Assembly: GCF_003987065.1 (NCBI RefSeq)
Contig: NZ_PIPY01000005.1
Location: forward strand, 1-64,000
Reading direction: 5' to 3'
Source of the DNA: Pseudidiomarina insulisalsae
GTDB lineage: Bacteria > Pseudomonadota > Gammaproteobacteria > Enterobacterales > Alteromonadaceae
DNA: 64,000 nt
The stretch's first letter is position 1, and every line of letters begins with the position of its first letter. Below are positions 21,412 through 35,536 of the stretch, in pieces. The translations under genes were made by a program, and so were the position numbers. The notes under the pieces are model-generated. The model searched no databases, was not told where the DNA came from, and saw nothing but the letters and a program-made list of their open reading frames with translations.

Positions 21412-21521
21412 CCTCTGCCCGGTAACGGGGCAGAGCTCGCAGGTTTTTGCCCCTGCGCCAGCAGGGGCTGCCCCCTCTGGCGCAGGGGAGGACGAGCAGG
21501 AGGGCTGCCCCTGCTGGCTTA
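21412..21521. repeat. Family B repeat cluster after the ZIP-like gene
   Basis: Begins one base after the ZIP stop with the hairpin CTCTGCCC/GGGCAGAG, continues with a long palindrome (CCCCTGCGCCAG ... CTGGCGCAGGGG, about 21453-21490) and a last core that touches the stop codon of the convergent peroxidase gene. It occupies the whole gap between the two convergent genes and may serve as a bidirectional terminator. Confidence 0.9.
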
Positions 21522-22682
21522 GAGGAGTTGCAGGAAGGCGAGCAGGGCGTCTTCTTCTTCGCGGGTGAGGGAGAAAGGGACGAGCTCGTCGGTGGTTTCA
21601 GGGTAGGGCTGCACCCAGGGCTGGTCGGCGGGGCGTCGGGGGCGCGGGCCGCCATGGCCGTATTGACGGACGATGCCGCGCAAGTTATCAAACAGGCCGT
21701 TATGCATCCATGGACGACTTTGCATCAGGCCACGCAGCATGGGCGTGCGAAACGCGCCAAGATTTTCGATGCGCTGGTCAATTTCCCAAAGCCCTAAATC
21801 TTCAAAACGCCGACCGTAATAATGAAAGCCTGTGACATGAAATTTCTGGTCCGACAGTAGTGGTCCGTTGTGGCAGCGCACGCAGCCGGCTTTGGTGCGA
21901 AACAGATCGAGACCATGTAATTCCTGATCGCTTAAGCTCGCCTGCGCAGTCGCCAAATCGCCCTGATCAACCGCGCGCAAAAACTGATCCAAGCGATTAT
22001 CCGGATGGTCATATAAAGTCAGTGTGCGCTGAAAGGCGGCTAGTGCACGGGCAATGTGGGGCCAGCGAACGTCTTCAAATCCGGGGTAGTTCGCAGCAAC
22101 GTGGGCGACAGCATGCGCGCGACTTGAGGCCATCTCCACCTCATCTTCCAAAGGCATATGCGCCTGTTGCACCAGATTTACCGCGCGCCCGTCCCAGAAC
22201 AGTTTTTCCCATAAATGCACGTCGAGCAGGCTTTGCGCGTTGCGTTTGCCAAGTCGTCCCTGAACACCAGGTGTCACGCGCTGATCATCGGCAAAGGCGT
22301 GGCTGCTTTTGTGGCAACTGGCACAGCTGACGGTGCCGTCAAGAGATAGTCCGGCGTCATGAAACAGGCGCTTCCCTAGCTGCACCTGCGCGGGATCTTG
22401 CGCCGGCGGCTCAGGCAGCGCCGCCACATCTTCGCTCGCTCCTTCTGCCAGCTCGGGCCAGTGCTGCAACGGCTGCAGATAATCGGCCCATAAGCGCTCG
22501 TAGCGATTGCGGTCATTCAATGGCGGCACCGAAGATTGCGGAGCTGGCATCGCCTCGTCGGTTTTTGGCTGCGCATCGCTCTCATCGCCCAGAAAAAGCG
22601 CGCCGCCGACCAGCAATAGCTGGAACAGCAGCGGCAGGGAGAGAATGGTCATTAGCGTCAACTTGAATTTAACGCCACGCAT
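21519..22682 (-). CDS. Di-heme cytochrome c peroxidase / MauG-family protein
   Basis: A 387-residue protein with an N-terminal hydrophobic anchor (about 8-31) and two c-type heme sites, CASCH at 120-124 and CVRCH at 267-271. Family signatures include RLFHDAGLSLDGTVSC, RNAQSLLDVHLWEKLFWDGR and FRTPMLRGL. It should lie in the periplasm and oxidise either H2O2-linked donors or, as MauG-type enzymes do, a protein or metal-bound substrate. It starts inside the end of the TonB receptor gene (14-base overlap) with its own GGAG, the last gene of a three-gene unit. That context argues for a dedicated partner of the receptor rather than a general peroxidase. Confidence 0.85.
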   Translation of the reverse strand: MRGVKFKLTLMTILSLPLLFQLLLVGGALFLGDESDAQPKTDEAMPAPQSSVPPLNDRNRYERLWADYLQPLQHWPELAEGASEDVAALPEPPAQDPAQVQLGKRLFHDAGLSLDGTVSCASCHKSSHAFADDQRVTPGVQGRLGKRNAQSLLDVHLWEKLFWDGRAVNLVQQAHMPLEDEVEMASSRAHAVAHVAANYPGFEDVRWPHIARALAAFQRTLTLYDHPDNRLDQFLRAVDQGDLATAQASLSDQELHGLDLFRTKAGCVRCHNGPLLSDQKFHVTGFHYYGRRFEDLGLWEIDQRIENLGAFRTPMLRGLMQSRPWMHNGLFDNLRGIVRQYGHGGPRPRRPADQPWVQPYPETTDELVPFSLTREEEDALLAFLQLL

Positions 22683-25365
22683 AGCTCACTCCAAACCAGA
22701 ACGAACGCCCGGTTTCAATGCCCGCCAGGCCAGGGCCGACGCTGTAGGTCCGCGAGTTGAGCAGGTTGGAAACCTCGAAGCTGAGGTTAATGTCATGAGC
22801 TGTGCCCAGCTTCAATTCGTACTCAAAATTGGCATTGAGTAAGGTGCGTGCCGGGCGCTCGACGACCTTATAAACCGCGTAGCTCAGGGCGTTGATATCA
22901 CACTCGCTACAGATCTCGTCACCGCGCGATATTTCGCGTAGGGCGCCGGTCGCTTCAGCGCTTTCGTAGGTTCCGACATAGTTGGCGATGAGCGTTGAGC
23001 TAAAACCGTCAAACCAGTCGCTGCGCAGCGATACCGTGGCGGTCAGCGGTCGGCTGAAGTCGTCCTGACGGCGGGTCAGATCATCGAAGCTGAGCAAGCG
23101 GAAGTTGCTGCGTCCGTCGTCACCTGTGGTTTGCAGGAAGACAATTTCATCCTCGGGAACGGCGTCAACGCTGTCGTCGTAGGATTCTGCTGAGCTCTCA
23201 TTCTCGGTGAAGCTGGTATGCGCCCAGAGTCCGTGGCGGCCGAAGTCTCTTTGGTAAGAGAGTGTCAAACGCTGGTGCGAGCCTTCGCCTTCGTTGCCCT
23301 GCAGGATTTCGGTGTAGCCGTCGCGGTCGATGGCGTCTGCGCGGGTGAGCAGGTCACGCCGCCAGCGTTGCACGGCTTTGATGCTAAAGACGCCCCCGGC
23401 GATGCGTTGCTTCCAGGCCAGCGTCGCCTCGTCGCTGTAGGGCGTGTCGATGTTATCGAAGCTGTAGCGGTAGCGCGGCGCCTGCGCTGAGGTGCGCCAG
23501 TCCTGCACGACACCGTTATTCAATGAGCGGTATTGGGTGATATAGCCGCGTTGTTGCTCACGGATTTTGTAGGTCAACACGTTGGCGCTGTAGTAGCGGT
23601 TGGCACCAACGACCAGGCGCGCGCTGCCAATATCGACACCGGCTTGCAGGCGCGGCGCGAGATTCAGATTGCCAAGGAAATCGTCATAGTCGGCGCGCAG
23701 TCCCAGATTAAATTCCCAGTTTGCGAGGCTGACATTGTGTTCCAGGTAGGCCGCGTACTCTTGCAGTTGCACGTCAATATATTCGAGTGGGTACACGCGG
23801 CGGTACTGGAAGAACTGGCCGCGGGTGAGCAGGTTTTCCTGATAGGCCTGCAAATGCTCGGGGTTGGCGAAGTCAATGCTGCCGCCAAGGCGCTCTGCCA
23901 GTACATCAAGCGGCACTGCATAGGTTTGCTCGATGCAGTCGAGCGTCATGCCGCGGCAGTCGATGTTGGCGTCGCGAAAAGGCGCGTTGTAGACCAGTCC
24001 AGTTTCGGTGCGACGGCGGGAAAGCTCCAGATAATTGCTTTCCAGACCGAGTTCCAACTGATGGTCGCTGTTACCCCAGCTCCAGGCGTCGAACTTAGCT
24101 GAGCCTCGCCAGGTCAATGTCTGCTGCTCTTTGTCGATATCGCCATATCCGCCCTCGACGCTGAACGGTACTTCGCCGACATTCAGCCCCCACGATTTGC
24201 CGGCAGCGCGGTACCAGGGCAGATATACGTTGGGTGCGGTGCGGCTGTTTTGCGAGGTCGCGTAGGAGAGCGAACTGCGAAAGAGGGCTGCCCCCTCTTT
24301 GTGACGGGCGGAAATGAGCAAGGTCTGCCCTCCGCCTTCGATGTCGAAGCGTGAGTCTTTGACGTCGGTGAGCAGGTAGCCGCCTTCATAAGGTGAGTGG
24401 GTGGCGGACAGGCGCACTTCGTCGAGGCCCCAGGCGTAGCTGGTTAACGCAAGACGCGCGCTGACAGATTCGCGCGCGGTGGGTTCGTTTTGTCGCAGCG
24501 AGTACTCGGTCATGGTCGAGGTGGTACGACTGAGCGCCAGATCCAGCGCGTAATCGGCGCCAATGGGCGTACTCGCGCTCAGGCTCAGGGTGCGTTTGCT
24601 GAACTGCGGCGCCTCAAAGGCCTCGCTATCGGTTTGCGCGGCGTCTTCACCGTTATAATCGCGCTCGTCGATCACGCGGTACTGGTTCCAACTCGACTCG
24701 CTGCCGCGATAGCTTAACGTAACACTCGGCTCGCGCGGCATGCGCTGGCGCGGCTGCACGTCGACCACGCCACCAGCAAAACCGCCAAAGCGCGCCGGCA
24801 CGTTGCTGTCATACACGGTAACGTTATCGACCAGCGACTGATTGATGAAGGTCGCCTGCGGATGTCCCTGCACGTCGTTGATTTGCGCGGGCGAGGCGCT
24901 GCTTGCGGCCGGGTCAAGGCGCGAATTATTGTTCACGCCGTTAAAGTAAAAACCGGTCTGCCAGGGCTGCGCGCCGGAAATCGACAGCAGTTGCGCGCGG
25001 ATTTCGCCTTGTAAATCGGCGCTTAGCGCACTGTCGGAACTTTGTACGCCCGGCAGCGTCAGCAGCATATCGGTAATGTTACCGTTGCCTTGCGGCAGGC
25101 CGTCGAGGTAGTCGCGCGAGAGGTTGTATTCGCCGGCCAAAGTCAGGCTCTCCGGCGCGTAGCGGTGGCCTTTTACGATGATGCGCTCGAGTGGCTCAAC
25201 GGCTGACGAGCCCTGAGCTTCGCTCGGGTCGGCCGTGCTCTTTGCCTCGGCAGCCGCGCTCGCAGTTTCGGCGGCGACGACAGCCGCACTACTAAGTAGC
25301 GCGGCAATTGTCACAGCGAGCAAACTCATGCGCGGCTTAGCCCAATGGGGTTGGGTCGTTCGCAT
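22669..25365 (-). CDS. TonB-dependent outer-membrane receptor
   Basis: An 898-residue outer-membrane protein with a signal peptide (to about residue 32, VVAAETAS), a plug domain beginning ERIIVKGHRY and containing LLTLPGVQSSDSAL and NVPARFGGFAGGVVDV, and a beta-barrel ending in an aromatic-Arg tail (SYAWR). No ligand can be read from sequence. The gene starts inside the end of the upstream lipoprotein gene and overlaps the di-heme peroxidase gene downstream. A short family B core sits within the reading frame (24280-24300, giving KEGAALF). It probably imports a metal complex or other large ligand. Confidence 0.88.
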   Translation of the reverse strand: MRTTQPHWAKPRMSLLAVTIAALLSSAAVVAAETASAAAEAKSTADPSEAQGSSAVEPLERIIVKGHRYAPESLTLAGEYNLSRDYLDGLPQGNGNITDMLLTLPGVQSSDSALSADLQGEIRAQLLSISGAQPWQTGFYFNGVNNNSRLDPAASSASPAQINDVQGHPQATFINQSLVDNVTVYDSNVPARFGGFAGGVVDVQPRQRMPREPSVTLSYRGSESSWNQYRVIDERDYNGEDAAQTDSEAFEAPQFSKRTLSLSASTPIGADYALDLALSRTTSTMTEYSLRQNEPTARESVSARLALTSYAWGLDEVRLSATHSPYEGGYLLTDVKDSRFDIEGGGQTLLISARHKEGAALFRSSLSYATSQNSRTAPNVYLPWYRAAGKSWGLNVGEVPFSVEGGYGDIDKEQQTLTWRGSAKFDAWSWGNSDHQLELGLESNYLELSRRRTETGLVYNAPFRDANIDCRGMTLDCIEQTYAVPLDVLAERLGGSIDFANPEHLQAYQENLLTRGQFFQYRRVYPLEYIDVQLQEYAAYLEHNVSLANWEFNLGLRADYDDFLGNLNLAPRLQAGVDIGSARLVVGANRYYSANVLTYKIREQQRGYITQYRSLNNGVVQDWRTSAQAPRYRYSFDNIDTPYSDEATLAWKQRIAGGVFSIKAVQRWRRDLLTRADAIDRDGYTEILQGNEGEGSHQRLTLSYQRDFGRHGLWAHTSFTENESSAESYDDSVDAVPEDEIVFLQTTGDDGRSNFRLLSFDDLTRRQDDFSRPLTATVSLRSDWFDGFSSTLIANYVGTYESAEATGALREISRGDEICSECDINALSYAVYKVVERPARTLLNANFEYELKLGTAHDINLSFEVSNLLNSRTYSVGPGLAGIETGRSFWFGVSYAWR
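24280..24300. repeat. Family B core palindrome inside the TonB receptor gene
   Basis: The palindromic AAAGAGGGC and GCCCCCTCTTT (sharing the central TG) have the same GGGCTGCCC core as the intergenic family B copies. It is read through in frame as KEGAALF in a barrel strand or loop. It could be a REP insertion or chance convergence because only the core is present. Confidence 0.5.
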
Positions 25366-28078
25366 CTTCTACTCCGTCATTGTCTGCATCGTTGTCGGTG
25401 GCAATGTCATTGTCAGCCAGCTGCTCTTCAGTTGCGCTGACCGCAAGGAAGTTGGCCAGGCCGTCCTGATCGGTGTCGACTGAGGCAACAATACTTGCCG
25501 GGAAGTCGTCTTGCAGCGCCTGAAGCTCGCTGATAAGTGCTGTCAACGTCAGACGCTCGGCGCTACCAAGGGGCAATTCGTTCAGTAGCTCTGATGCGAG
25601 TGAGTACTCACGAATAGCGGCAAGTGCCAGGGTCACGTCGGCTGCCTCGTCAATCGCGTCGACTTCGGGTAATTCGCGCATAGTGGTAGCCAGCGTCCGT
25701 GCCAGCGTACCGTTAAGCAGACGGCTGCGCGCCATGAAATCGGCATACTCAGGGTGGTTATAGGCATTGCGCCGTAAGGTCTGTAACACCGAGTAGCGGG
25801 TCAGCACCATGGCTGAGTCGCTGTCAAAGCTATTAAAAGTTGCCGCTAGTTGTAATAACGCATTCGCGCGCTCAGGAGCTGTCAGACTCTCATTGTTCTG
25901 CGCCTGGTTCAGTGCCGACTCGATGGCATTCAGCGCGCCGGTGTAGTCGCCGCTATAGGCCCGCACTTGCGCGACCTCAAGTGTGAAATCAAATTGGTCG
26001 GCGGAGGTTGTCGGCAGGCTGGCAAAGGTCGTCTCCAGCGTGTCGAGCAGGCTCAGGGCCTGACTGCTCTCACCCAGCGCCTGCCATGCAGTGACTGCGT
26101 CAAAGTGAGCATTCACGACATCGCTCAGCGAGACATCGCCTTCAACGGTATTGAAGTAGGTGGTCGCCATGGTTTCGCAGGCCGCAGCGGCGGCTGTCGC
26201 GTCAAGGCTGTCGATTGACTGATACAGTTGTACATATTTCAGGCAGCCGCGGGTGCCGGTCATATACAAGGTCGCGCCACCGTTTTCTGCAGCATAGGCA
26301 CTTGAGGTCAATACTGACAGGCCTTCGGTGAAAGCTTGTGCGGCCTCATCGGTGTAGCCGAGTGCGAGTAATTGGGCCCCCAGGTAAGGCGAAGCTGGCG
26401 TATTCTGGGTCAGTTGTACCTGCAAGTCGCGCAAGTCATTGCCGAACTCGGTCTTCAGTTGAGAAATGGCGTCATTGACGCTGCCGCCGTTCAGTACGAG
26501 GGCAAGGGCGCTGGCACCTGATACCGCATCTTCGGCGCGTGAGTAAAAAATACTGTCGCTTGGGATCAGCTGAAACGGCACATTTTCTGATACCGGCAGC
26601 TCAGGATATAAAATCGCAAAAGCGGCAGAGGCGTCCACTAAAGGGAAGGTGTAATCGGCCAGGCTAACTTGCGCGTAAGCTTTGGCTTCGCGAGCGTAAT
26701 TAGCGTCGTAGCTGACGTCGCCGTAGTAGCTGATGGTTTCGGCCAGTTGCGCACGCGCGGCTTCGGTGGCGCCGACCAGAATGTAGTATTCGGTGGCCAT
26801 GGCGCTGTAGAGCGGCGCGAGTTTATAGGCGCGTTCGCCGGCGTAGTCGCCACGGGTCAGAAGTTGATAACCGGTGTTGGCCACAATAGTCGTGAAGCGG
26901 TCGATGGCAGTGATGGCTCGGGTGCGATTTTCTGGTGTACGTTGCTGCTGATAGTGTTCAATGGCGCCTCTCACCTGATTGCGATAGGCGGTGACCAAGC
27001 GTCCGTAGGCAGTTGAGTATTCGTTTTGCGCGCCACCGATGGTGCTGGTGTAGACGTTCAGTTGCTGAATGGTCTGTTCAGCGCCGGCCTCGTCACCGGC
27101 GTCGATCTGGCGGTTCAACAAGGTCAATAGGAAGAGGGCGTCGGTGGAGGAAATGTTTTCCAGACCGTTATCGGCAATAAACTGCGCGTATTCTTTTAAT
27201 GCGTCGAGACGGGCGGCGCTGGCGAGGTCAGGTTCATTGGCTTCCGCGTAGGCATCGCCGAGATCTTTCAGGGTCACGGCGCGCGCTTGTTGCCCGGTAA
27301 TGTGATGGTTGAAAAGGCGTTCGACTTCGGTGTCGAGACCAGCGCGGGCGTACCCCTGTAGCAATGCGCTGTAGGCGTTGGCGCTGACAATGTCGTCATC
27401 AATTTGCTGCAGACGTTGCTCTGCGGCTTTTAAGTGTGACTTGTCAGAGCGGTAATAATAAGCGGCTTTTTCTTCGTTGGTGCTATAGGCCGGCTTTAGC
27501 GTGACGGTCGCTGTGGTGGTCGCCTGACCGTCGCTGATATCGACTGCGAACGACTGGTTGGGAAGCGTCAAAGTGTCGATGGCCAGTGTGAACGTGCCGT
27601 CGCTTTGTAACTGTAGCGTGCCGCTTTCGGGAGCGTTCGCGAGTGTGAAGGTAAGGCTGTCGCCGTCGACGTCGGTGGCGTTGATTTGACCTTCAATCAG
27701 GTTGTCGGCGGCCACTTCAATGGTTGATTGTTGTAGCTGCGGCGCGTCATTGACCGGGGCTACGTTGAAGCTGATGGAATAGCGCGTATTGCCGGCTTCG
27801 ATGAGGACTGAATCAGTGCCGTTGTAGTCTTGATCTGGTGTGTAGGTGACGAGTGCGGCGCCGACACTTACTTCGCCGTTTTGTGGCGCGGTGATGACAA
27901 TGGGCGTGCCGCTGAAGTTGATGGTTTGCTGCCAACTCGTGTCCTCGTTGAGCTGCGCTTGGATAGCCTCAAGCTCAGGTTCGTTGTTATCGCTGCCGCC
28001 ACCGCAAGCGGTGAGTAAAACTGAGGTGGTTAGCAATGCCGCCAGCTTCATGGGTGAGTTTAAGTTGTTATTTTTCAT
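25337..28078 (-). CDS. Large lipoprotein with cadherin-like domains and helical repeats
   Basis: A 913-residue lipoprotein: the lipobox LLTAC lies near residue 25, followed by GGGSDNN. Two Ig/cadherin-like modules follow (ITAPQNGEVSVGAALVTYTP; VNDAPQLQQSTIEVAADNL with DVDGDSLTF). From about residue 210 the protein is a long TPR-like alpha-solenoid, and it ends with calcium-binding-like repeats, DTDQDGLANF and DNDADNDGVEDANDP. It heads the overlapping lipoprotein-receptor-peroxidase unit and could be the surface or periplasmic ligand-binding partner of the receptor. No exact family was recognised. Confidence 0.75.
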   Translation of the reverse strand: MKNNNLNSPMKLAALLTTSVLLTACGGGSDNNEPELEAIQAQLNEDTSWQQTINFSGTPIVITAPQNGEVSVGAALVTYTPDQDYNGTDSVLIEAGNTRYSISFNVAPVNDAPQLQQSTIEVAADNLIEGQINATDVDGDSLTFTLANAPESGTLQLQSDGTFTLAIDTLTLPNQSFAVDISDGQATTTATVTLKPAYSTNEEKAAYYYRSDKSHLKAAEQRLQQIDDDIVSANAYSALLQGYARAGLDTEVERLFNHHITGQQARAVTLKDLGDAYAEANEPDLASAARLDALKEYAQFIADNGLENISSTDALFLLTLLNRQIDAGDEAGAEQTIQQLNVYTSTIGGAQNEYSTAYGRLVTAYRNQVRGAIEHYQQQRTPENRTRAITAIDRFTTIVANTGYQLLTRGDYAGERAYKLAPLYSAMATEYYILVGATEAARAQLAETISYYGDVSYDANYAREAKAYAQVSLADYTFPLVDASAAFAILYPELPVSENVPFQLIPSDSIFYSRAEDAVSGASALALVLNGGSVNDAISQLKTEFGNDLRDLQVQLTQNTPASPYLGAQLLALGYTDEAAQAFTEGLSVLTSSAYAAENGGATLYMTGTRGCLKYVQLYQSIDSLDATAAAAACETMATTYFNTVEGDVSLSDVVNAHFDAVTAWQALGESSQALSLLDTLETTFASLPTTSADQFDFTLEVAQVRAYSGDYTGALNAIESALNQAQNNESLTAPERANALLQLAATFNSFDSDSAMVLTRYSVLQTLRRNAYNHPEYADFMARSRLLNGTLARTLATTMRELPEVDAIDEAADVTLALAAIREYSLASELLNELPLGSAERLTLTALISELQALQDDFPASIVASVDTDQDGLANFLAVSATEEQLADNDIATDNDADNDGVEDANDPTPLG

Positions 28079-28297: not shown

Positions 28298-30211
28298 TTA
28301 GGCGAGATAGCTGAGCGCGAGGTCGTGCAGGTCGGTGGCGGCGATCTGGCGGAACTGGCAGGCGTCGGGGAGCAGCGCGCGGGGGCGCTCGATGGGTTTG
28401 GCGCTGTTGCTGACAATGGCGAGTTGCTGTCGGCATACGGGGAGTAGGGTTTTACAAAGCTCAAGATGCAAGTGTTGTGGTAACAGTCGTTCGGTAAACA
28501 CCAGTAGGTCGATATTGTCGAAAGCAAGGCCATTTTTGCTGATGTCGCCGTCGCGCACGTGCAGTAACAGGCTGGTCACGGCCGGGTCGGTCAACAGCGC
28601 CTGGCAGGCGGTAAACGCTGACTGCGCGCCGGAAGCGTCGGCTAATACATCGGCGCCAATGCCCATGCCTTCGGAGGTGATCCAGCCCAGGCCCGGCACC
28701 TTGCGACAACTGTCCACAAGCTCAGCCAGCGAGTCCTCACCGACCACCACAACCACAGGAATGCGGGGGTTCAGCGGCAAGCGTGCCTGCAAGACGTCGC
28801 GGTAAAGGTGCAATGCGGTGGTCGCGCCCAAATCTGGCTGTGCGTTCACCTCGCAGATGTTAGCGCCCACTTCGCGCCACGAGCGTGAGATATCGTCAAT
28901 CAGCAGGTCAATGCCGGCAATGTCGAGGCGCAGGGCACGCGCTGCGCGTTCAGCTAACGCGGCGTTATCCGGATGTAGCCGGTCAAACACCGGCACCGGC
29001 CTGCCCCCGGTGGCGACGTTAGCGATACTGCTCAGGCGCACGAACTGTCCGCGCTCGGGCACACTTTCAGCATTAAGCCCCTGCTTTGCCAGTATATGCC
29101 GGGCCTCATCGTCAAGGCGCAACGGTTTCAGGGTTTGCCGTGGGCCAACGCGGCGATGCAAGGTTAAATTCTCCTGCTCAATAAGCCGGGCAACATTCAG
29201 CTGCCCGTCCCCAAACACACCGCCGGGAACCCGCTCGACCGCCCACACCGCTTTGCCATCGACGACCGTCACACGATAATCGCGGCCAGCGACGTGTTGC
29301 TCGACCATCACCCGCTCAGAAGCCTCCGCAGCCTTTGCAAACGCCGCGCGCACTTCGTTCGCGTTGGTCAAATTGGCCGTAACCGCTTTACCGCCATCAC
29401 GATTGGACGGCTTGATGACTACCGGAAAACCGACCTTTTCAGCAAATTGCAGCGCCTCGTCGGCGGATTCCACAAAGCTGTTTTCCGGCACTGGCACGCC
29501 CGCTTGCCGTAAGCGCAGGTTGGTCACCAGTTTGTCGCGGGCCAGCCGTACGGAGATATTAGCGCTATCGAGGGAAAAAGTATGTTCAAACCAATGCGAG
29601 TTGGCACCAAAGCCGAACTGCGTAATAGCACCGTTTAATGGGATCACCGGAATATTAAGTTCAACGGCAGCTTTTAAAAATAGCGGGCTAAGGCTTTGTT
29701 TTTGAGAGCTTCTCACCTGCTCCAGAACCTCCAGAAGCTGACTCTGACGAATAGTATAGTGGTTACTGAAAAGTGCTTGATTTAAAAAGTCGATGACGAT
29801 CTTATAAGCTTGCGTACAAATGACCGGATTACAGTGGGGCACCGCTTGCACCACCGTTGAGCTCAACGAACGCGCGCCAAAAACCACCGCCGGCGCATCG
29901 AGTAACGGATACTTTAAATATTCAAGAATATGCGTCGCGGTCAGCGCGATCTGTCGCACCAGCTGCTCCCAACTGGCAACAGGCGTGTGTGACGGGTCAA
30001 TTGTCACCTCATCGACCTTGGCCAATACACCAAAGCCGTCAAAAAATGCCCGCAACTGCGCGCCGGTTTGCGGCTGGCTAAGTTGTGAGGCGAGCGTCGG
30101 GCTGCCGCGCAGGCCCAATACTAAGCTTGGTTGGCGGCGTCCTTTCCAGTAACCAGGAATGTATTTTTGCGAAACGATGCCAAGAGACTGTGCCTTATTC
30201 TTGCTAGTCAT
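28298..30211 (-). CDS. Cyanophycin-synthetase-like ATP-grasp ligase with degenerate Mur domain
   Basis: A 637-residue protein that follows the CphA plan. The N-domain (1-220) begins IPGYWKGRRQPSLVLGLRG. The ATP-grasp domain (about 225-480) has AGVPVPENSFV, FPVVIKPSNRDGGKAVT, VEQHVAGRDYRVTVVDGKA, SSIANVATGGRPV and ICEVNAQPDLG. Residues 483-637 align with the start of the CphA Mur-ligase domain, but the ATP loop GTNGKTTT is replaced by GEDSLAEL and the protein then stops. This resembles CphA2, which polymerises beta-Asp-Arg dipeptides using only ATP-grasp. The start overlaps the methyltransferase stop by eight bases. The product is probably a peptide-like amide ligation product; the true substrate is unknown. 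Confidence 0.8.
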   Translation of the reverse strand: MTSKNKAQSLGIVSQKYIPGYWKGRRQPSLVLGLRGSPTLASQLSQPQTGAQLRAFFDGFGVLAKVDEVTIDPSHTPVASWEQLVRQIALTATHILEYLKYPLLDAPAVVFGARSLSSTVVQAVPHCNPVICTQAYKIVIDFLNQALFSNHYTIRQSQLLEVLEQVRSSQKQSLSPLFLKAAVELNIPVIPLNGAITQFGFGANSHWFEHTFSLDSANISVRLARDKLVTNLRLRQAGVPVPENSFVESADEALQFAEKVGFPVVIKPSNRDGGKAVTANLTNANEVRAAFAKAAEASERVMVEQHVAGRDYRVTVVDGKAVWAVERVPGGVFGDGQLNVARLIEQENLTLHRRVGPRQTLKPLRLDDEARHILAKQGLNAESVPERGQFVRLSSIANVATGGRPVPVFDRLHPDNAALAERAARALRLDIAGIDLLIDDISRSWREVGANICEVNAQPDLGATTALHLYRDVLQARLPLNPRIPVVVVVGEDSLAELVDSCRKVPGLGWITSEGMGIGADVLADASGAQSAFTACQALLTDPAVTSLLLHVRDGDISKNGLAFDNIDLLVFTERLLPQHLHLELCKTLLPVCRQQLAIVSNSAKPIERPRALLPDACQFRQIAATDLHDLALSYLA

Positions 30212-30953
30212 GGGTCACCGCCGTGATCGTGGTTAGCTGCCAATGCATGCCGACAGTGCCGTCGGCGAAGTGAGTAAAGCCCAGATAATCGTCAATGGCA
30301 GCAACGGTTTGCGCAGGGCTGGCACTTTGTAAGTCAAACAGTTGCCAGCAAAAGTCACCCAGTTGTTCTCGTGTCGCCAAGCGCCAGAAAAACTGCTGCT
30401 GCGCCACCTGCTCGACGCGAAAACCTGCAGCGGTTAGTAAATGCGGCGTGTCGTCATTGAGATAAATGCCCTCATGGCCGGTGCTGTTATGAGCGCCAAC
30501 AAACTCATCCAGAAACTTTGCCACGGGCGAGTCTTGCTGTACATCAGAGAGCACCAGGCGGCCACCCGGTTTGAGTACCCGCGCGATTTCAGCAAATAAC
30601 GGCCGTTTGTCATCGAGGTGATGAACGCCGGCAAGGCTTACCGCGCAGTCAATTGAGTTGTCAGCCCACGGCAGGGGCAATAAAGGTACCGAGGTTGCAG
30701 CGTTGTTGCCGTGGTTAGTAAAGCTGGCGCAGGGCTCATGGCCCAGCCATTCGCAGTCAGGGGGCAGATGTCGCGCCAGATAACCGCCGCCGGCGGGAAT
30801 GTCAGCGACGCGCATGGCCCCGACGATAGCTGCGGCCTGAACCAGTTGCGCGAATTCTTCATCGCGCGCTTTAGGAAAGCGGGTCATGGCACGTTCGTAG
30901 GCAGTCCCTCGTGTCTCGAAGTGCTCGGTATAACTTCTCGCCATCGGGTTCAT
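30204..30953 (-). CDS. Class I SAM-dependent methyltransferase
   Basis: A 249-residue Rossmann-fold methyltransferase with the SAM motif VADIPAGGGYLARHLP, an acidic/aromatic second-strand region and LKPGGRLVLSDVQQDSP. There is no signal peptide. Its stop overlaps the start of the CphA-like ligase, so the two should be co-translated and may methylate a precursor or product of the ligase. Start at 30953 (AAAGGA is rather close); the ATG three codons inside is also possible. The substrate cannot be told. Confidence 0.8.
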   Translation of the reverse strand: MNPMARSYTEHFETRGTAYERAMTRFPKARDEEFAQLVQAAAIVGAMRVADIPAGGGYLARHLPPDCEWLGHEPCASFTNHGNNAATSVPLLPLPWADNSIDCAVSLAGVHHLDDKRPLFAEIARVLKPGGRLVLSDVQQDSPVAKFLDEFVGAHNSTGHEGIYLNDDTPHLLTAAGFRVEQVAQQQFFWRLATREQLGDFCWQLFDLQSASPAQTVAAIDDYLGFTHFADGTVGMHWQLTTITAVTHD

Positions 30954-34611: not shown

Positions 34612-34770
34612 ACGCTAATCCTCGACTTATTCCCCCAGTCGCAAATCGAGTATTTTCACGAAAACCTAAGTGACACCGCCCCGTAGCCCGTTGTCTTGCA
34701 TAACACGCTTACGCCACAGCGTGCCTCAATCTAGCCCACCCCCAGCCGGGGCAGATGTCACCACAACCCC

Positions 34771-34811
34771 CCGGCTGCGCCAGAGGGGGCAGCCCCTGCT
34801 GGCGCAGCCGG
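34771..34811. repeat. Family B palindrome upstream of the RAYT gene
   Basis: A 41-base palindrome with arms CCGGCTGCGCCAGAGGGGGC and GCCCCTGCTGGCGCAGCCGG around a central A; 18 of 20 arm positions pair. It lies 38 bases before the RAYT start and forms the left arm of the RAYT-repeat unit. A GTAGCCCG word like the foot of family A is at 34684-34691. Confidence 0.9.
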
Positions 34812-34849
34812 CTGTTATACTGACCTCTGAGCGCAACAGGGAGGTCGCT

Positions 34850-35536
34850 ATGCCAAATCGTAGAAGGAATGACGTGCCGGGGGTGGCGCTTCATATTACG
34901 CAACGTGGTAATAATCGGCAGCTGATGTTCAGGGAAAATGAGGATTATCAACGTTTTGCAGGTATGCTGATCCGCTACGCCGAGCAGTACAATATGGTCG
35001 TGCACGCCTGGATGTTGATGCCGAATCACATTCATCTTCTGGTAACCCCAAGTGAGCGGAAGATGACGGGGCGGATGATGATGTGTACCACGGGCTCTTA
35101 TACCCAGTACTACAACTCAAAATACCGCCGCACGGGGACGCTCTATGAGAAGCGCTATTTCTCGGCGCTGGTCGATTACGACGAGTATGTGATTAATGTT
35201 TATAAGTACATCGAAATGAACCCGGTCAAAGCCGGGCTCGTTACCCATCCGCGTCACTGGCACTGGAGTTCTTATCGCCATAATGCCGAGGGTATCTTTT
35301 CATCTATGCTGGTGCCCCACCTTTCCTTCTTGAAGCTTGGCATCACGCTGTCTGACTGCCGCAAAGCCTATCGCCAGCTGATTGCGGCGACCAATGTAGA
35401 TAGTGACGACTACGACAAGCTGCGCGAACAGATTCGGGACGCTCAGACGCACCAGTCGGTGTTCGGCGGCGAGGAGTTTCGGGCGGCAATGAGCAAGCAA
35501 TTAGGCTTTGAAATAGAGAGGGCAGAGGTCGAGTGA
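34850..35536 (+). CDS. REP-associated tyrosine transposase (RAYT, Y1_Tnp/HUH)
   Basis: A 228-residue single-strand endonuclease of the IS200/IS605-like class that processes REP hairpins. The HUH motif is PNHIHLLV (H60, H62), and the likely catalytic tyrosine is Y118 in YVINVYKYIEMNPVKAGLV. MPNRRRNDVPGVALHITQRG and GTLYEKRYFS are typical of the family. The ATG at 34850 has GGGAGG upstream; the longer in-frame reading from 34670 only translates the repeats. Family B palindromes lie on both sides (34771-34811, 35548-35574) and no IS ends are seen, as expected for a domesticated, single-copy RAYT. Confidence 0.92.
   Translation: MPNRRRNDVPGVALHITQRGNNRQLMFRENEDYQRFAGMLIRYAEQYNMVVHAWMLMPNHIHLLVTPSERKMTGRMMMCTTGSYTQYYNSKYRRTGTLYEKRYFSALVDYDEYVINVYKYIEMNPVKAGLVTHPRHWHWSSYRHNAEGIFSSMLVPHLSFLKLGITLSDCRKAYRQLIAATNVDSDDYDKLREQIRDAQTHQSVFGGEEFRAAMSKQLGFEIERAEVE

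Follow-up and report, generated by a model that had tools for sequence, protein, structure and literature searches.

A CphA-type ligase with a degenerate Mur domain beside a conserved methyltransferase neighbour in Pseudidiomarina insulisalsae

CphA enzymes serve as models for template-free peptide polymer synthesis. Those described in the consulted portions of PMC10206079, PMC9427784, PMC9262961 and PMC4431377 make cyanophycin. The systems to which we compare the present locus are CphA1 (TIGR02068/NF010623; structures 7wae, 7lg5 and 7lgm) and CphA2 (7ta5 from Gloeothece citriformis; 8fxh and 8fxi from Stanieria sp.), the latter with the CphA fold, an inactivated Mur-ligase (M) domain and no Mur lid. 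We analysed a stretch of 64,000 nucleotides from Pseudidiomarina insulisalsae (contig NZ_PIPY01000005.1, positions 1 to 64,000; hereafter the window), in which a ligase of this family is encoded next to a class I S-adenosylmethionine (SAM)-dependent methyltransferase. The ligase gene (P0001, 637 amino acids) occupies 28298..30211 on the minus strand. The methyltransferase gene (P0002, 249 amino acids) is the upstream gene of the pair, at 30204..30953 on the same strand, and its end shares 8 bp with the start of the ligase gene (30204..30211). A first-pass annotation had placed the pair here, and its coordinates, strand, lengths and overlap were all confirmed. The sequence comparisons reported below support a ligase of CphA type whose Mur domain is dead and whose methyltransferase neighbour is conserved. 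The fold and the kinds of enzyme are known; what is new is their combination and the altered active site. Among the papers listed by our literature searches, judged by title and abstract opening, none pairs a CphA-like ligase with a methyltransferase, and an earlier mention is possible.

The ligase and its degenerate Mur domain

The NCBIfam models for cyanophycin synthetase match the ligase over residues 134-588 (E 4e-94) at 316 bits where 877 is the cut-off, far under what is required of a CphA1, and TIGR02068 scores it at 292.5 bits, below its equivalog cut-off of 850. By sequence, the closest solved structures are CphA1 chains, then CphA2 (7ta5, 8fxh), then GshAB. We rejected identity as a glutathione synthetase: GshF/GshAB (3ln6, 3ln7) match much more weakly and differ in domain composition, and scores are far higher for CphA, models and structures alike, a judgement made on profile and Protein Data Bank scores with GshF outside the tree described below. 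N-acetylglutaminylglutamine synthetase (TIGR03103), a related ATP-grasp ligase with a GNAT-fused architecture, covers residues 212-443 only, and more weakly (1.6e-43). That enzyme makes a small capped dipeptide, which is a precedent for small-molecule use of the fold.

The N-terminal domain (residues 1-170 or so, 29702..30211 on the minus strand; the boundary is approximate) lacks the HxxEH primer-cleavage motif of CphA1, which is found in 0 of 19 short ligases that we aligned as against 8 of 12 CphA1 sequences. The ATP-grasp (G) domain (about residues 176-462, minus strand 28826..29686, with numbering transferred by alignment) keeps the catalytic Lys, Arg, Asp and Glu residues of CphA1, namely Lys227, Lys267, Arg313, Arg327, Asp435 and Glu454, whose roles we take from PMC9427784. 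The catalytic G-domain residues are invariant across 31 aligned ligases, all 19 short ones included. The M domain survives as a degenerate remnant (residues 483-637, minus strand 28301..28765) without P-loop, Mg-binding Glu or lid. At the site of the CphA1 ATP loop GTNGKT stands GEDSLAEL (residues 491-498, minus strand 28718..28741), as the first-pass annotation had read it (GTNGKTTT to GEDSLAEL), and residues 561-572 are GLAFDNIDLLVF. The M P-loop (GTNGKT/S) and the equivalent of the Mg-binding Glu558 have been lost in 19/19 short ligases, which are open frames of 570-715 amino acids, whereas both are present in 12/12 CphA1.

The AlphaFold model of the ligase (predicted local distance difference test, pLDDT, 88.8) matches both CphA1 and CphA2 along nearly the whole chain. 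The M remnant is modelled confidently and residues 483-637 contain no intact second ATP site; the modelled chain stops at the position that matches CphA1 residue 708, which leaves it without a Mur lid. Judged by sequence and model together, the ligase is a CphA descendant with a complete ATP-grasp site and an M domain that is predicted to be folded but catalytically empty.

Three G-domain positions differ from CphA1 (CphA1 numbering first): Glu215 corresponds to Arg222 of the window ligase, His267 to Gly273 and Gly456 to Asp460. Position 215 is Arg in 15 of the 19 short ligases and Glu or Asp in none. None has His or Gln at position 267, against 14/14 CphA1, and Gly is kept at 456 in 3/19, against 14/14 CphA1 and 2/2 CphA2. 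In CphA2 the P-loop reads GHKGIG, position 215 is Asp and position 456 Gly; the corresponding residues of the window ligase are DGG, Arg and Asp. The first-pass annotation had described the protein as being in the state of CphA2. This stands for the state of its domains, but the ligase is not a CphA2, since it has other G-domain residues and a clade of its own.

That clade emerges from a tree of the G domain (288 columns, 37 rows, with CphA2 as two G-domain fragments only). Fourteen ligases group together (99/98): nine from Pseudidiomarina, one from Thauera, those of two metagenome-assembled genomes (MAGs) labelled Kuenenia and Rhizobium, and those of G651 and G892 (G and L numbers are our handles for genomes and loci). 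Three ligases from loci in which the ligase gene comes first (100/100), the G583 and G064 ligases (100/98) and CphA2 (100/100) form separate groups, and these together with the 14-ligase clade split from CphA1 at 97/96. The window ligase is thereby apart from CphA2 and split from CphA1, but the deeper order is not settled by approximately unbiased (AU) tests: neither a topology that groups the short ligases with six CphA1 rows to the exclusion of CphA2 (p-AU 0.187) nor one that unites the 14-ligase clade with the ligase-first group (p-AU 0.164) was rejected, and CphA2 with 7wac was borderline (p-AU 0.063). Since alternative topologies are not rejected, a single loss of M activity and several losses are both possible. 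A sister relation to CphA2 (97/96) was not adopted, given the long branches and these alternatives. Second CphA copies beside CphA1 (L089, L096, L097, L107 and L109), which were left out of the tree and compared as fragments only, resemble the window ligase in that the M P-loop is missing from 5/5; they adjoin CphA1, which the window ligase does not. These fragments place dead-Mur CphA proteins beside CphA1 in non-cyanobacterial genomes, so that, as far as sequence goes, dead-Mur copies are not confined to cyanobacteria.

Ratios of nonsynonymous to synonymous substitution (dN/dS, by NG86) for the ligase were 0.13 in G018/G007, 0.18 in G005/G003 (dS 1.8), 0.25 between the MAGs labelled Kuenenia and Rhizobium and 0.23 between a MAG labelled Rheinheimera and one from Baikal; the window/G016 and G018/G002 pairs were saturated. 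For the methyltransferase, the ratios were 0.12 (G005/G003), 0.11 ('Kuenenia'/'Rhizobium') and 0.19 ('Rheinheimera'/Baikal). The last 148 codons of the ligase, the dead M part, gave 0.12 in G018/G007, which argues that this C-terminal part is maintained. Orthologues in 8 of the 25 congeners (41-50% identity) and such low ratios put the conservation of the ligase far beyond chance.

The methyltransferase and its link to the ligase

P0002 matches Pfam Methyltransf_11 (1.5e-11), and its model (pLDDT 89.2) has the Rossmann-type fold and glycine-rich SAM loop of a class I enzyme. Its best NCBIfam methyltransferase family is DVU_1556, at 49.3 bits against a cut-off of 155, and none of 13 members of the group does better than E 4e-13 against the named NCBIfam methyltransferase families. 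Across 12 methyltransferase/ligase junctions, measured from ATG start codons that we chose, the genes overlap by 4 or 8 bp in nine and are separated by 8-15 bp in three, from which we infer that the two genes may be translationally coupled.

Among 26 genomes of the genus, with all first-look candidates scored, nine have the ligase and seven have the methyltransferase, and these seven all belong to the nine (hypergeometric 5.5e-5, a statistic that ignores relatedness). The methyltransferase lies directly upstream of the ligase, whole in six genomes and as a remnant of 176 amino acids in G002.

Outside the genus, a scan of one genome per species used the methyltransferase alignment and two exact peptide motifs, with ligase-only named loci outside its scope; it favours close relatives, because only loci with one of the two motifs are visible to it. 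The scan returned 13 loci, six of them from congeners. In six of the seven named loci from outside the genus, the ligase is directly adjacent. The methyltransferase comes first in Thauera and the MAGs labelled Kuenenia and Rhizobium, and the ligase comes first in MAGs labelled Chromatiales, Rheinheimera and Gammaproteobacteria; 4-bp overlaps occur in four of the six pairs. The 'Kuenenia' and 'Rhizobium' loci are largely syntenic with each other, as are the 'Rheinheimera' and Baikal loci, and for this reason we count four lineages. The MAG labels themselves may be binning errors. Conservation of the methyltransferase neighbour, which the first-pass annotation had named as a check, therefore holds in the genus and in these six outside loci, with the exceptions given below. 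The methyltransferase tree (G892 row excluded) is poorly resolved, and the pairs that it shares with the ligase tree are window+G016, G005+G003, 'Kuenenia'+'Rhizobium' and 'Rheinheimera'+Baikal.

Wider surveys covered 369 genomes of the class (up to seven candidates scored in each), 394 of the order (up to six) and 398 of the phylum (up to three), so that the counts are lower bounds. The methyltransferase was matched at E 1e-15 or better in at least 7/369 genomes of the class and matched in at least 4/394 of the order, the window's genome included each time. The ligase profile matched at least 33/398 genomes of the phylum at E 1e-60, mostly in frames of CphA1 length; the short ones that we inspected were G892, G583 and G064, and a 659-residue frame in G1070 was left out. 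In G892 (L115), a genome from outside the class, a different class I methyltransferase (22% identity) lies 63 bp upstream of the ligase. A distant methyltransferase homologue in G112 adjoins an ATP-grasp_4 gene. Plasmid records matched the ligase 130 times, none over more than 80% of its length, and the best 40 of the 130 were led by CphA and ngg; ten records matched the methyltransferase, all distantly, one of them over more than 80% at 27% identity. A single-protein query with P0001 against genome contigs gave no match.

As a control, we examined 28 other ligase loci (L082-L109; flanks of 0-1.4 kb). Upstream, a second CphA copy was found at 16 of the 28, and a Pfam scan of ten further loci found no methyltransferase and five Peptidase_S51 genes, the family of cyanophycinase; G583 has a 2-oxoglutarate (2OG)-Fe(II) oxygenase and L083 has no upstream flank. 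Downstream, none of the 20 segments scanned (28 flanks) was a methyltransferase, in a set of short, cut segments of which 6/20 matched any family. The window ligase thus differs from CphA1, most of whose examined loci adjoin Peptidase_S51 or a second CphA, in adjoining a methyltransferase.

Several of the loci have further genes of note. In L115, an open reading frame (ORF) resembling 5-oxoprolinase/hydantoinase, named by eye, converges on the ligase (L115:4646-10935). A 2OG-Fe(II) oxygenase and no methyltransferase precedes a divergent short ligase at L116:7613-10267. The ligase and methyltransferase of L064 (1986-8732) and L111/L118 lie inside larger islands with chorismate-binding and AMP-binding enzymes, and the L111 island also holds TauD, cytochrome P450 and glycosyltransferase genes.

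Possible products and competing explanations

The reading that we favour, and hold to be somewhat probable, is that the pair is a two-enzyme biosynthetic module whose product is a small di- or oligopeptide or amide that carries methylation and differs from cyanophycin. The ligase would activate one carboxylate as an acyl phosphate and couple it to an amine supplied by an amino acid or small peptide; formation of an acyl phosphate and an amide bond is expected because the catalytic residues are kept, by analogy with what PMC9427784 describes. The M remnant would act as a structural or oligomerisation platform, and the methyltransferase would methylate the building block or the product, before or after ligation, perhaps capping a carboxyl or amine. 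Two genomes retain the ligase but have no methyltransferase, which points to ligation as the central reaction and to methylation as a step that tailors or caps. The methylated peptide or dipeptide polymer that the first-pass annotation proposed as the product is conjectural. In a bolder and more doubtful version, these ligases would be a third branch of the CphA family, present in several bacterial lineages and no longer making cyanophycin. Working with a methyltransferase of its own, the branch would yield a methylated peptide not described before, which could be a compatible solute or a short isopeptide polymer of repeated units. If true, a conserved branch with one dead engine, joined to a methyltransferase, would provide a compact pathway of two genes to a new class of products and would reveal what the M domain does after its catalysis is lost. 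The label "cyanophycin synthetase" is probably wrong for short proteins of this type.

Cyanophycin is an unlikely product because the ligases stand apart from CphA2, active-site residues are altered, and the window's genome contains no CphA1, no cyanophycinase and no IadA (one protein query each); the absence of these genes from the neighbourhood, noted in the first-pass annotation, extends to the whole genome. The asparaginase/isoaspartyl aminopeptidase family PF01112 is uninformative, being found in 26/26 genus genomes, the window's included. Three other genera of the family (L038-L040) share the gene order IadA-like, cyanophycinase-like, CphA1 and a further CphA-like gene, identified as such in L038. 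At L038:8298-9977, the protein encoded beside CphA1 (P0004) matches cyanophycin synthetase over the M half alone and still has a GTNGKST loop, a mirror image of the window ligase; clustering finds P0004-like ORFs in L039 and L040. G008, a congener that has no ligase, encodes IadA close to a weak match to cyanophycinase on its contig C5 (17592-24742), perhaps a locus for cyanophycin use.

A number of findings count against the module as we propose it. Only 8 of 14 CphA1 rows have Glu at position 215, one having Arg, and CphA2 has Lys in the His267 column. Neither the reversed charge at Glu215 nor the absence of His267 is accordingly diagnostic by itself, and, as cyanophycin-making CphA2 also lacks His267 and CphA1 varies at 215, the changed residues alone do not exclude cyanophycin. 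Within the genus, G018 and G007 keep the ligase (dN/dS 0.13) without the methyltransferase, and the G002 remnant lacks the central part of the SAM fold, so methylation is either dispensable or done elsewhere. The methyltransferase locus of an Opitutae MAG has no detected ligase, nor has the L068 locus with its methyltransferase homologue. In the six other methyltransferase genomes of the class, no ligase lies within about 1.5 kb: G651 has its ligase at a distance of about 5.5 kb, and in G484, G676, G561 and G542, six-frame comparison of 10-16.5 kb found no ligase beside the methyltransferase (the G484 stretch reaches the contig end about 1.8 kb downstream, and G720, on a short contig, lay outside this comparison). 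The three other matches in the order are distant methyltransferase homologues (23-33% identity) without this ligase, and no methyltransferase of this family was found among the ORFs picked in 16 kb around the divergent ligases of G583 and G064. The downstream half of the control is weak because its segments are often cut. A methyltransferase profile built without the G892 row misses the G892 methyltransferase, so other types beside other ligases may have been missed outside the Pfam scans. With distant homologues mostly lacking the ligase, the link is strong but not universal.

The strongest competitor, which we nonetheless regard as unlikely, is surface-polysaccharide decoration, in which the pair would make, or attach, a methylated substituent (amino-acyl or peptidyl) of a capsule or exopolysaccharide. 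Genes for a Wzi-like protein and phosphoglucose isomerase lie within about 8 kb of the ligase in five of the nine genus loci (L031, L032, L034, L035 and L036), with a Wza-type export gene also near in L031 and L032; these calls rest on Pfam for L031 and on clustering for the other loci, and the Wzi match is under its Pfam cut-off. In the window, within about 25 kb, there are Polysacc_synt_2 (CapD-like), CysNC-like, CysD-like and Inositol_P (CysQ-like) genes, along with a galE-like gene by eye and clustering, and some methyltransferase homologues elsewhere lie near glycosyltransferase, sulfotransferase and PaaK-like genes. Against decoration, the neighbours of the pair vary between genomes, and no capsule genes were recognised by eye in the ORF lists of the Thauera locus (a poor list) and the ligase-first loci. 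That the ligase and methyltransferase are co-expressed but serve different pathways is improbable in our view. Ligases without the methyltransferase (G018, G007) and methyltransferase homologues without the ligase both exist, but adjacency is kept in four lineages, in both gene orders and mostly with overlapping start and stop codons, and the G892 ligase adjoins a methyltransferase of a different kind.

The same conserved link speaks against a genuine CphA2 that repolymerises imported beta-Asp-Arg dipeptides with the methyltransferase incidental, to which we give equally little credence. Such an enzyme would share the domain state, but the window ligase lies outside cyanobacteria, in a separate clade and unlinked to cyanophycin turnover genes; its residues differ from those of CphA2 (Arg, DGG and Asp rather than Asp, GHKGIG and Gly), the grouping with CphA2 stands on long branches with its alternative at p-AU 0.187, and neither cyanophycinase nor IadA occurs in the genome, the congener with IadA and the weak cyanophycinase match (G008) being one without the ligase. 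Least credible of all, and strongly disfavoured, is a decaying CphA1 without function. The loss of M-domain motifs, the patchy distribution (9/26) and a methyltransferase that is absent or broken in three of nine genomes would fit decay, but frames of 570-715 residues are intact in 19 short ligases, dN/dS is 0.13-0.25 in four pairs and the catalytic residues of the G domain are invariant.

Neighbouring genes

At several loci (L063, L064, L111/L118, L112, L113 and L114), a PaaK-like adenylating enzyme is encoded close to the methyltransferase or the ligase. We rejected such an enzyme as a third component of the module: a match occurs in 1/26 genus genomes (G016, about 70 kb off), and there is none in the window's genome. 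The chorismate-binding enzymes near the pair in L064 and L118 do not cluster with each other at E 1e-10. In L112, L113 and L114, methyltransferase homologues without a ligase lie near the PaaK-like enzymes, together with a QueC-like gene in L112 and sulfotransferase and P450 genes in L113; these are possible surface-polymer or natural-product islands.

Beside the pair, positions 21519-28078 of the window encode a MauG-like di-haem peroxidase (by Pfam) and, by eye, a TonB-receptor-like protein and a large lipoprotein-like protein. Homologues of this three-gene block also lie near the pair in G004 and G012 (L033, L037). On the other side, at 34670-35536, is a transposase-like ORF, by eye of the REP-associated type; G016 has a homologue of it near its own pair (L030:5261-6007).

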